Positions 519 through 8,036 of a DNA stretch of 64,000 nucleotides are shown in pieces. Numbering within the stretch: the stretch's first letter is position 1; every line of letters begins with the position of its first letter. The stretch spans positions 1 through 64,000 of the forward strand of contig NZ_LYBV02000034.1 of NCBI RefSeq assembly GCF_001660705.2. Direction: 5' to 3'. Made by a program: the position numbers and the translations under genes. This stretch comes from Saccharicrinis aurantiacus. GTDB lineage: Bacteria > Bacteroidota > Bacteroidia > Bacteroidales > Marinilabiliaceae. A model generated the notes under the pieces. It saw only the letters and a program-made list of their open reading frames with translations. It ran no database searches and had not been told where the DNA came from.

Positions 519-605
519 AATATGGCTTTTATTTGTGTTTTTACCAAAGCCGACTCCTCGTAGTATACTTTGTGGTTTTTACAGAACGTATACGAAGAGA
601 TGCGT

Positions 606-730
606 TAATGATTGGAGCGGCATCCTTTGTGAGCCCGTTATGGCGAAGCAAAGATATAGCGGAAAGCATGACCCGAGAAAAGGGATTTGTGCTGATAATA
701 GAATAGTATTAGGAGGGGAACGCCCAATGT
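606..730 (+). ncRNA. Candidate structured RNA (Flavo-1-like, unverified)
   Basis: The core AGCGGAAAGCATGACCCG and the opening TTGGAGCGGCATCCTTTG resemble a non-coding element that I recall as widely dispersed in Bacteroidota genomes, perhaps the Rfam Flavo-1 class. Visible pairing: ATCCTTTG (622-629) with CAAAGAT (649-655), enclosing GCC (633-635) with GGC (642-644). CCC/GGG pairs are also possible in the 3' half. A 65-codon reading frame across this stretch (535-732) looks incidental. The family name comes from memory and needs a covariance-model search. Confidence 0.35.
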
Positions 731-3940: not shown

Positions 3941-4246
3941 CTAATCTGAAATTAAATACTCTTCAACTGCGTTACCTTCTTCTAAGGCATCTAAAATTTC
4001 ATCAATTTTATCCTCAGTAATTTCGCCATACCAAAAGTTATTTGGGTGAACCACCATAATAGGTCCTTGGCTACATACATTTAAACAGGCTGTGCTTGTT
4101 ACTGCGGCATCAATACCTCTATCGTTGCACTCTTCCATGATGTATGGAATAAAATCGCCAGCTCCATTTTTGTTACAGAATCCTTTTGCATCGCCTGCAA
4201 CACGATACGAATTACAAACTAAGATGTGATACTCTGGTTTTTTCAT
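3941..4246 (-). CDS. Thioredoxin-like [2Fe-2S] ferredoxin
   Basis: The 101-residue protein matches the Clostridium pasteurianum-type thioredoxin-fold [2Fe-2S] ferredoxin along its whole length, for example HILVCNSYR, CSQGPIMVVHP and WYGEITEDKIDEIL. The four expected ligand cysteines are C11, C24, C54 and C58. The position of the fifth, non-ligand cysteine of the clostridial protein is Tyr14 here. In clostridia this ferredoxin is linked to nitrogenase, so its position between nifB and nifV suggests a redox role in nitrogen fixation or cofactor assembly (inference). It is separated from nifB by a 701-bp gap rich in repeats. Confidence 0.88.
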   Translation of the reverse strand: MKKPEYHILVCNSYRVAGDAKGFCNKNGAGDFIPYIMEECNDRGIDAAVTSTACLNVCSQGPIMVVHPNNFWYGEITEDKIDEILDALEEGNAVEEYLISD

Positions 4247-4674: not shown

Positions 4675-4930
4675 TCCCTAAAGCATTTGCCTGGCCCACG
4701 CGAGTTTCACCTCATCCCCTAGAACCTTTTATGAACCCCCATGGGTTTAGAGCTGTCCCCTACATATTTTGCCTCATCACACTAAAGGTTTTTGCCATCC
4801 CCTAGGGTATTAATAGCTTCCCCGAGAGGTTTGTAATCGTCCCCGAGGTAATTGACACCACCCCCGAGCACATTGGTTAATTCCCCTAGGTATTTAACCC
4901 GTCCCCTAGAAATATGTGCAGTCCCCTAGC
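4675..4930. repeat. 13-unit phased array, 20-21 bp period, core CCCC(T/G)AG
   Basis: Core starts are at 4675, 4695, 4716, 4737, 4757, 4778, 4799, 4820, 4841, 4862, 4883, 4903 and 4923. Spacing is always 20 or 21 bp. Eight units carry the exact or near-exact core TCCCC(T/G)AG; the units at 4675, 4695, 4737, 4757 and 4778 are degenerate. The 13 bases between cores differ from unit to unit and are AT-rich. The mix of 20 and 21 bp spacing breaks any reading frame, so it is not a peptide repeat. It ends 18 bp from the nifB stop codon. In the nif transcript the core reads CTAGGGGA. About two helical turns per unit would put every core on one face of the DNA. Confidence 0.85.
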
Positions 4931-4947
4931 GGCTTTCAGCTGTTTTA

Positions 4948-6219
4948 TCAACCACAACCCGTTCCTGTTCCTGAACATGATGCCCCACATTTGAAGGCTT
5001 CTGCTTTGGTAATGGTTCTTAAATCTTCACCCTTATAAATAGCATCCATTCCTTGGTCGATAAGTCCAGACATCTCTACTACCTTAATACCCGACTTACC
5101 TAATATTTTAGATGGCTTAGGTCCTATACCTCCAACCAATATTGCTCGGCAATCACTTAAAGTATCTCCTAACTCTACCCATCTATCATCACCATTGCCT
5201 CGTGGTGGTGTTACTCTTTGGTTTACGAGCTTGTATCCGTTTGGTGTTTCTTTAAAAATATATAGTCGATCAGCTTCACCTAGATGTTGATTCACCAAAA
5301 TACCTTCGTTACTAGCCACCGCTACATATGGGCGTTCTTCCTTTTCTCCACCACCACAGCCAACAGTCATTTTTGCCGCTTCTGATAAAAGCTCCATGGC
5401 CTCAGTACTATCTTTTCCTAAAAGACCTGCTGCATCAGCCCTACAACGGCTACAGTGCGTCATTGGAGGTAAAAATGCGCCAATTTCTTTACGGATGGCT
5501 TTCATGGTTGCTGCTTCAGGCTCTGTTAAATCAGAGAAAGGCGTATCCTCAACTGGAATTAATGGAATGGTATTCATTAAATCAACACCCATTTTTGCTA
5601 AACCTTCGGCAAGCTCTGGTAAATGATCTTCGTTAATACCTGGTATTACAATGGCATTGGCTTTAACTGTTATGCCTGCTGCTTTTAGCTTTTCAATGGC
5701 TTCGAGCTGTTTGCCTAATAATATAGTGGCGCCTTCTAAACCGAAATATCCTTTTTTATCGAAACGAACCCAACGGTATACTTTTGATAATATTTCAGGA
5801 TCGAGTGCATTTATGGTAATGGTAACATGACTTACTTCTAACTCTGCAAGCTCATCAATATAAGGTCCTATTCCTAAACCATTAGATGATACACACAAAA
5901 TCATATCATCATAAGTTTTTCGAACCAATCGAAGTGTTTCCATGGTTTCATTAGGATTGGCAAATGGATCTCCAGGACCTGCAATACCAACAACTGAAAG
6001 GTTTGGCATTTTCTCTTTCAGTCCTTTTAAGTAAACCATTGATTGCTCTGGCGATAATATATTTGAAGTAACTCCTGGTCTGCTTTCGTTTACACAATCG
6101 AATTTACGGTTACAGTAGTTACAGCTAATATTACATTTAGGAGCTACCGGAAGATGAACTCTGGCATATTGTCCTTTCGCTTCTTTATTGAAACATGGGT
6201 GTTTTTTAAAATCGATCAT
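4948..6219 (-). CDS. nifB: Nitrogenase cofactor biosynthesis protein NifB
   Basis: NifB is the radical-SAM enzyme that builds the NifB-co precursor (an 8Fe core with carbide) for nitrogenase cofactor. The SAM cluster motif CNISCNYC gives C29, C33 and C36 when counted from the ATG at 6219. The C-terminal third (from about RPYVAVASNEG) is a NifX/NafY-like cofactor-binding domain, and the protein ends in a Gly/Cys-rich tail (CGASCSGTGTGCG). Nine upstream codons are open from a TTG at 6246, but they run into the AAGTATCAAG repeat and the domain starts at MIDFKKHPCF, so 6219 is preferred. No separate nifX was seen in the window. Confidence 0.95.
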   Translation of the reverse strand: MIDFKKHPCFNKEAKGQYARVHLPVAPKCNISCNYCNRKFDCVNESRPGVTSNILSPEQSMVYLKGLKEKMPNLSVVGIAGPGDPFANPNETMETLRLVRKTYDDMILCVSSNGLGIGPYIDELAELEVSHVTITINALDPEILSKVYRWVRFDKKGYFGLEGATILLGKQLEAIEKLKAAGITVKANAIVIPGINEDHLPELAEGLAKMGVDLMNTIPLIPVEDTPFSDLTEPEAATMKAIRKEIGAFLPPMTHCSRCRADAAGLLGKDSTEAMELLSEAAKMTVGCGGGEKEERPYVAVASNEGILVNQHLGEADRLYIFKETPNGYKLVNQRVTPPRGNGDDRWVELGDTLSDCRAILVGGIGPKPSKILGKSGIKVVEMSGLIDQGMDAIYKGEDLRTITKAEAFKCGASCSGTGTGCG

Positions 6220-6230
6220 AGCTCTTTGTT

Positions 6231-6465
6231 TAGTATCAAGTATCAAGTAGTAAGTATCAAGATGATTTACAACTTGTGACTTCAGTTTGATATAGCTTGA
6301 TGTTTTTTTATTAGTATCAAGTATCTGGTCTCAAGTATCAAGAAGATTTACTGCTCGAATACTTAGTTTTTCATAGCTTGATATATTCTCTCTTTCGGTA
6401 TCGTAATTAAGTATCAAGTTGATTTAGATCCTGTAAATAATCTTGTGTCTTGATACTTGATACTT
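6231..6465. repeat. AAGTATCAAG hairpin element between nifN and nifB
   Basis: The element carries repeated AGTATCAAG units on its left side (6232-6260, again at 6313-6341 and 6410-6418) and the inverted form CTTGATACTT at its right end (6449-6465). It fills the gap from 3 bp beyond the nifN stop codon to 12 bp before the nifB start codon. The signature AAGATGATTTAC near 6259 and GTAAATAATCTTGTGTCTTG near 6433 recurs in the copies at 7888-8036 and 9703-9774. Confidence 0.65.
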
Positions 6466-7887: not shown

Positions 7888-8036
7888 AAGTATCAAGATT
7901 CAAGATTCAAGTATCAAGATGATTTACAGCTTGCTTTGAAACTTGAAAGGATTAAAACTTAGAACCAAGGCTGTGTATCAAGAGATATTTACATCATGCA
8001 AATAGTCTTATGTCTTGATACTTGCTACTTGATACT
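7888..8036. repeat. AAGTATCAAG hairpin element between nifE and nifN
   Basis: The left side holds AAGTATCAAG (7888), two degenerate copies and another AAGTATCAAG followed by ATGATTTAC near 7909-7926. The right side holds GTCTTGATACTTGCTACTTGATACT (8012-8036 region). The right end overlaps the nifE stop codon (8035-8037) and the left end lies 8 bp from the nifN start, so the element fills the whole intercistronic gap. Confidence 0.6.

Follow-up and report, generated by a model that had tools for sequence, protein, structure and literature searches.

The intergenic DNA behind nifB in Saccharicrinis aurantiacus carries an array of 13 short cores of the form CCCC[TG]AG, repeated at steps of 20 or 21 bp (positions 4675–4934, no strand assigned, best period 20.7 bp). 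Positions are those of the window, the whole 64,000-nt stretch of contig NZ_LYBV02000034.1 that was analysed. The array is one of several in its genome, and arrays with other cores and closely similar spacing occur in the intergenic DNA of related genomes. Our preferred reading, which we hold tentatively and a little short of an even call, is that the array is a dispersed non-coding intergenic element comprising ~4–16 putative protein-binding sites, set 20.5–21 bp apart on one face of the helix.

Organization of the array

A dynamic chain search connects 13 CCCC[TG]AG cores over 4675–4929, with successive steps of 21, 20, 21, 20, 21, 21, 21, 21, 21, 21, 20 and 20 bp (eight of 21 bp and four of 20 bp). 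The chain score of 40 compares with a mean of 7.0 and a maximum of 17 for dinucleotide shuffles, none of 2,000 scoring as high. Rival step pairs from 14/15 to 29/30 give chain scores of 5–12 in the same array, while 21/22 gives 26. The 13-unit array that had been described from a sequence-only reading is therefore confirmed at its place by the chain score against shuffles. It is not called by Tandem Repeats Finder.

Eight of the 13 cores match the consensus at all seven letters and one more at six, with five letters matched in unit 1 (4675), unit 2 (4696) and unit 4 (4737). Unit 6 has decayed to CACACTA (4778–4784, plus strand), with two of seven letters kept, and the phase is unbroken across it. 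The best-kept stretch (4799–4929, plus strand) consists of seven successive perfect cores, at 4799, 4820, 4841, 4862, 4883, 4903 and 4923.

Core and helical spacing are what the array mainly conserves, as the sequence-only reading had held, with an identity of 0.68 in the core and 0.35 in the spacer. The companion statement that the bases between cores are unrelated is mostly correct; the exceptions are unit columns 12 and 13, which are almost always T (1.41 and 1.0 bits of information over the 12 full units), and the spacer identity itself, which is 0.35 compared with 0.27 expected. The array is non-coding, because the 20-bp steps break the reading frame. Nor is it CRISPR-like, as it has a 7-bp core and gaps of 13–14 bp, compared with CRISPR repeats of >20 bp and spacers of similar length.

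Further arrays in the same genome

The window core is arrayed at two further places. One, at C24:111.3 kb, lies 18 bp past an acyltransferase/AMP-ligase stop codon; the other is at C67:326.5 kb. The gene-proximal end unit is common to all three arrays (window, G000:C24 and G000:C67); in the window this is the unit on the nifB side (TCCCCTAGCGG..CAGC, 4922–4942, plus strand). Inspection of the three copies by eye reveals no common outer end and no inverted repeat. A second array family in the genome is based upon the core TGGGGATT (TGGGG) and has four copies, for which a weak candidate TTAG(T/C)CG-like pair was noted by eye. L187 and L278 each have a single array with an unrelated core; a weaker array at L190 passes the lag scan and fails the spectrum test (both described below). 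The copy number is thus three for the window core and four for the TGGGG core, with the others occurring once in the sampled part of the genome.

The TGGGG array at L098/L100 lies between two segments of ~50 bp (~1400–1450 and 1660–1710) that are alike by eye. These segments are present without the array at C48, C32 and C16, and are perhaps a second dispersed element or a recombination site.

A preferred period across the family

An array-blind scan was made of the intergenic DNA of 14 genomes of the family (226 kb) for matches at any lag from 6 to 70. It covers the DNA outside reading frames of ≥150 aa, with short genes remaining, and its lags may be off by one. Eighteen of the 35 matches fall at lags of 20–22 or 40–43, compared with 3.8 expected under even lags (p = 3 × 10⁻⁹). 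When the places that had been fetched for known arrays are removed, 13 of 30 matches remain at these lags (p = 5 × 10⁻⁶). One lag-22 match (G015, L238) looks like a satellite of 7-bp units, and its omission brings the counts to 17 of 35 (p = 2 × 10⁻⁸), and to 12 of 30 if the seeded places are also dropped (p = 3 × 10⁻⁵). The remaining matches are scattered, or come from 7-bp satellites or from one locus that resembles a CRISPR. No match was obtained from the samples of five of the 14 genomes (G003, which is of the same genus, G042, G046, G105 and G104). In a sample at the level of the order, comprising 20 pieces from other families with 46 kb of intergenic DNA, there are 13 matches, of which two are at 20–22/40–43 and three at 23, and the Escherichia coli K-12 control gave two in 44 kb, at lags of 7 and 43. 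A CRISPR-like array with a period of 65–67 bp and the repeat GTTGTGGTTTGAATCTAATAAGCAATAAGATATAC was observed in G019 (L215, 5370–6700).

Triplets of CCCC were counted in 71 genomes, giving 418 matches at 20/21 bp, 165 at 23/24 bp and 80 at 17/18 bp; omitting the outlier G026 the numbers are 257, 144 and 78. In the relatives the triplet pattern at 20/21 bp picked out arrays with several different cores. A spacing of 20–21 bp is preferred, yet arrays of 23 bp are real and the period is not perfectly fixed. In genomes G041, G027, G103, G058 and G019 there are arrays of C4-NN-G4 sites at multiples of 21 bp. All the site spacings of the CCCC..GGGG arrays are multiples of 21 at eight of nine loci, and the ninth (L072) has two overlapping matches 1 bp apart; L073 has one stray CCCC..GGGG site 1,000 bp off.

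The period spectrum was tested for 35 hand-picked arrays, nearly all of which came from matches already near 20–23 bp. Thirty of the 32 significant arrays lie at 20.1–21.1 bp, a clustering that is not independent of how the arrays were picked; the array-blind lag scan and the threshold scans 3′ of nifB and tonB are the fairer measure. The three that failed the test are L190, L166 at 18783 and, narrowly, L216. There is no special harmonic at 10.5 bp within the units, harmonics 1–4 being about equal in A/T content.

The cores differ from array to array, even inside one genome, and the arrays look species-restricted. An array with a period of 23.1 bp in G077, a member of the same order and another family (L248, 9630–9770), suggests that phased arrays also occur outside the family, there with a unit that is slightly longer.

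Different cores at one site

The site downstream of exbD-tonB was chosen since arrays were already known there in G054, G102 and G027. Thirty of 65 tonB matches were fetched, in at least two of which (L149 and L150) the scanned stretch falls within the gene, at a contig end. Five of the 30 loci exceed the threshold of 8.5 in a lag scan of the 3′ sequence, every one at a lag of 20 or 40–41. These are G054 and G102, which have one core, together with G027, G058 and G104, making four unrelated cores. With the three known loci removed G058 (31.9) and G104 (8.6) pass, and G016 (7.7) is just short. The convergent neighbour in G054 is a TauE-type gene, and the array in G027 is made of nearly perfect repeats. 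Because three of the arrays were known before the site was selected, the tonB site illustrates turnover of the core and is no proof of recurrence.

Uneven conservation within the units

One array is present at three loci in G041, with 83.6–85.3% identity over 238–258 bp and no match reported into the flanks. In a gapless alignment of 238 bp the C4/G4 columns are variable at 2 of 93 positions, compared with 35 of 121 in the spacer (p = 4 × 10⁻⁸). The central two columns of the sites are variable at 13 of 24 positions, nearly all being A/T. From the alignment the pattern looks like that of a protein recognition site with two halves, and unlike uniform decay. The four-copy TGGGG family has 1 of 25 core positions variable compared with 25 of 132 elsewhere, which is a trend (p = 0.08). 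The window core CCCC[TG]AG may be viewed as an asymmetric form of C4-NN-G4. A palindrome rule for all units, attractive by eye, was dropped on a combined p = 0.11; four of 33 hand-typed unit consensuses have p < 0.05.

These data bear most directly on the strongest rival to the binding-site reading, namely that the arrays are neutral minisatellites carried on MITE-like elements, in which units of ~21 bp (or 23 or 41 bp) are duplicated and dispersed and then decay without function. The BrickBuilt and MITEPgRS repeats of Porphyromonas gingivalis may be neutral in the same way, and offer a precedent. We take this to be a real possibility. It accommodates the presence of near-perfect arrays (such as that 3′ of tonB in G027) beside strongly decayed ones, the apparent restriction of arrays to species, the copying of entire arrays and the coexistence of 23-bp arrays. 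It fits less well with the G041 copies, where the C4/G4 columns are far steadier than the spacers and have fast-changing centres between them, or with the difference in identity between core and spacer in the window array. Moreover, chance duplication alone leaves the accumulation of lags at 20–22 and 40–43 unexplained, and likewise the phase that outlasts decayed units. An ordinary decayed duplication, the alternative that the sequence-only reading had set against its own proposal, is weakened by the uneven decay of the window array and the three G041 copies.

Position relative to genes, and possible RNA structure

Both neighbouring genes are known for 33 arrays, counting paralogous copies separately. 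Nineteen lie between tandem genes, eight between convergent genes and six between divergent genes; the intergenic background of 544 regions comprises 352 tandem, 67 convergent and 125 divergent. Convergent placement is therefore seen for 8 of 33 arrays compared with 67 of 544 regions (p = 0.04), and 15 of the 19 arrays between tandem genes are nearer to the 3′ end of the upstream gene (p = 0.01). The arrays thus have a moderate tendency to be located at gene 3′ ends.

The closeness of many arrays to 3′ ends would also be expected of an untranslated RNA element, in which a protein bound to evenly set hairpins or G tracts would stabilise transcripts or end them. Hairpins of 5–6 bp could be formed by some units, and the nifB-sense strand of the window array folds slightly above the shuffle mean (z = −1.46). 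However, that value is not clearly above shuffles, and neither is that of the other strand (z = +0.68). Self-complementarity is not general among the unit consensuses, C4-WW-G4 arrays are identical when read from both strands, and a single-stranded RNA has no obvious reason to keep the helical period of DNA. We consider an RNA element improbable. G tracts that are set 16–17 nt apart are a poor fit for G-quadruplexes, and given this separation the formation of such structures by the G tracts of the array, which had been suggested earlier, is unlikely. A search of the whole window against Rfam 15 gave none for the array and a sole match above gathering score, to the Flavo-1 RNA family (600–677, plus strand); at 43.1 bits compared with a gathering score of 42 this is near the threshold.

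Transposase genes and replicons

Y1/RAYT-like genes are present in the genome of the window. Among 27 Y1_Tnp loci from seven genomes the window core is found only as single matches, at L273 and L280, and forms no array. The core TGGGGATT occurs near Y1 loci once at L273 and four times at L283, where it is inside a short-unit satellite. Arrays with other cores at lags of 20–22 or 43 are present at four of the 27 loci, accounting for 6 of 12 matches in 41 kb. This density is about twice that of the family sample (18 matches in 226 kb), which by estimate is within chance, so that there is no clear excess and no clear support for a RAYT link.

Two phased arrays with further cores lie beside Y1-transposase-like genes in G019, one having a lag of 42–43 (L270, 2130–2330) and the other a lag of 22–23 and a dyad of the CCGAGCGGTAC type (L287, 2110–2310). 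In the window's genome a RAYT-like gene is located amid large palindromic repeats of the CACACGAG..CTCGTGCGG type (L278, 1190–2640), and this looks like a REP/RAYT system.

Iterons are likewise direct repeats of ~20–22 bp in helical phase, and on this ground the array might be taken for what is left of a chromosomally integrated origin of replication from a plasmid or phage. This is very improbable. The window array is surrounded by nifB, a ferredoxin gene and a nifV-type gene with no replication initiator seen, a plasmid search gave no match at E 0.01, the sole match of the C4WWG4 pair in a viral contig falls within an open frame, and several unlike cores are dispersed through one genome.

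The genes around the array

The names given earlier to the two flanking genes, nifB and ferredoxin, hold in a profile search. nifB (4948–6246, minus strand), the stop codon of which is ~13 bp from the array, scores above the cut-off of TIGR01290. The gene downstream of the array (3941–4246, minus strand) encodes a thioredoxin-like 2Fe-2S ferredoxin, being barely above the cut-off of PF01257 and below those of the NCBIfam ferredoxin models. The next gene is a nifV-type homocitrate synthase (TIGR02660, 435.8 bits, below the cut-off of 462.9).

A nifB-like match is present in 23 of 71 genomes of the family, and 22 of these were examined, including the window's own; G110 (39% identity) was left out. 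An array follows nifB in one of the 22, which is the window's own genome. The sequences 3′ of nifB in the other 21, G047 included, contain no array when read by eye, that of G002 being read from L030 since L105 is cut by the contig end. A lag scan of the 420 bp after nifB at 21 loci gave a best lag of 20–22 or 40–43 above threshold at the window's own locus only. Five further loci are above threshold with best lags of 7, 8, 13, 15 and 29. Lags of 20–22 are also above threshold in G013, G022 and G031, where they are outscored by another lag (7, 8, 29), and in G047 the best lag of 22 is sub-threshold (z = 7.3). The place of the array, with nifB on one side and the ferredoxin gene on the other, might suggest a site that regulates the nif operon. 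This is scarcely credible with no array 3′ of nifB in the 21 other genomes and arrays of the same core adjoining unrelated genes, and on the same grounds the description of the array as a nif element is not sustained.

Heptamer repeats (AGTATCA/CTTGATA) are found among the nif genes of the window at 6230–6465, 7893–7920 and 8014–8036, and include an 81-bp duplication. Short-unit satellites adjoin nifB in further genomes of the family too (L030, G013 and G022).

DISCUSSION

In the binding-site reading that we prefer, a putative dimeric DNA-binding protein would read each core, with C4 and G4 as its half-sites (C4-WW-G4 in the clearest arrays). The protein would assemble over consecutive sites on one face of the helix, and the extended complex might then bend or wrap the DNA behind genes. 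The arrays would spread as whole blocks, the core turning over among lineages while the phase stays. Since the arrays tend towards gene 3′ ends, and by analogy with BIMEs, the effect is likely to be architectural, such as the handling of supercoils, insulation or termination behind transcribed genes, rather than the control of one operon.

A number of observations count against this reading. One sequence-specific protein cannot explain the unlike cores within one genome. There is no general palindromy and no 10.5-bp harmonic, 23-bp arrays exist, five of the 14 genomes are without a match, three of the 35 hand-picked arrays fail the spectrum test, six of the 33 arrays lie between divergent genes, there is a lag-43 match in E. 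coli, and the core bias of the TGGGG family is weak.

A broader proposition is that the arrays are a lineage-wide class of element, in which the helical spacing is itself the conserved information and the core can be exchanged across species and loci. The arrays, with sites facing one side at every second helical turn, would then be read by a hypothetical architectural system governing supercoiling or the folding of chromatin behind the genes of Bacteroidota. We regard this as rather unlikely as it stands. To our knowledge the organization of Bacteroidota chromosomes has been little studied. In-phase binding would make the arrays a bacterial code for DNA architecture in which spacing outlives sequence, and this would give a possible function to the 22-, 23- and 41-nt minisatellites of P. 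gingivalis, which have been described within mobile repeats. Should the arrays be neutral instead, the preference for duplications of 20–21 bp needs a mechanism of its own.

Comparison with known systems

Plasmid iterons are short direct-repeat sites about two helical turns apart. The present arrays differ, in that no initiator is seen by the window array and the chromosomal copies are scattered. Operators of the CsoR/RcnR type have C-tract and G-tract halves, and are single promoter sites. The C4-WW-G4 core resembles these, whereas the arrays described here are repeated.

The BIME and REP sequences of enterobacteria are moved by RAYT transposases, and like the present arrays they are extragenic repeats that often occur at gene 3′ ends or where two genes converge. 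A role in DNA supercoiling has been proposed for them (PMC3733652). REP are described as palindromic repeats of 20–40 bp with tags at one end (PMC3733652), unlike the window array, and the window core forms no array at the 27 Y1 loci.

A literature search covering few subscription journals gave no title or abstract opening on 20–21-bp phased arrays in the family. Repeats of 7 bp (TAACTGA) are reported in PMC4679880. The closest counterparts are in P. gingivalis, where PMC4596501 describes two kinds of element. BrickBuilt is a dispersed intergenic MITE/minisatellite with 23-nt direct tandem repeats, and MITEPgRS/464 has 41-nt tandem repeats and IS-related terminal inverted repeats. The words 'helical' and 'helix' have no occurrence in the main text of that paper. 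As described there, BrickBuilt is like the present arrays in being intergenic and dispersed, with direct repeats and a limited host range in the same phylum, and its unit has one conserved half and one that is less so. Its copies are many, compared with three for the window core and four for the TGGGG core. Its unit is 23 nt, compared with 20.5–21 bp in the window and most arrays examined (20/21, or 41 per two units); 23-bp arrays exist in the relatives. It differs in having a leader and tail with IS5-like terminal inverted repeats, none of which was found by eye at the three copies of the window core. The 41 nt of MITEPgRS equals the two-unit period (20 + 21) that several of the arrays have in the genome of the window, a comparison made by length and description only. 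Relative to elements of the BrickBuilt and MITEPgRS kind, the constrained phase and the exchangeable core are what is new.
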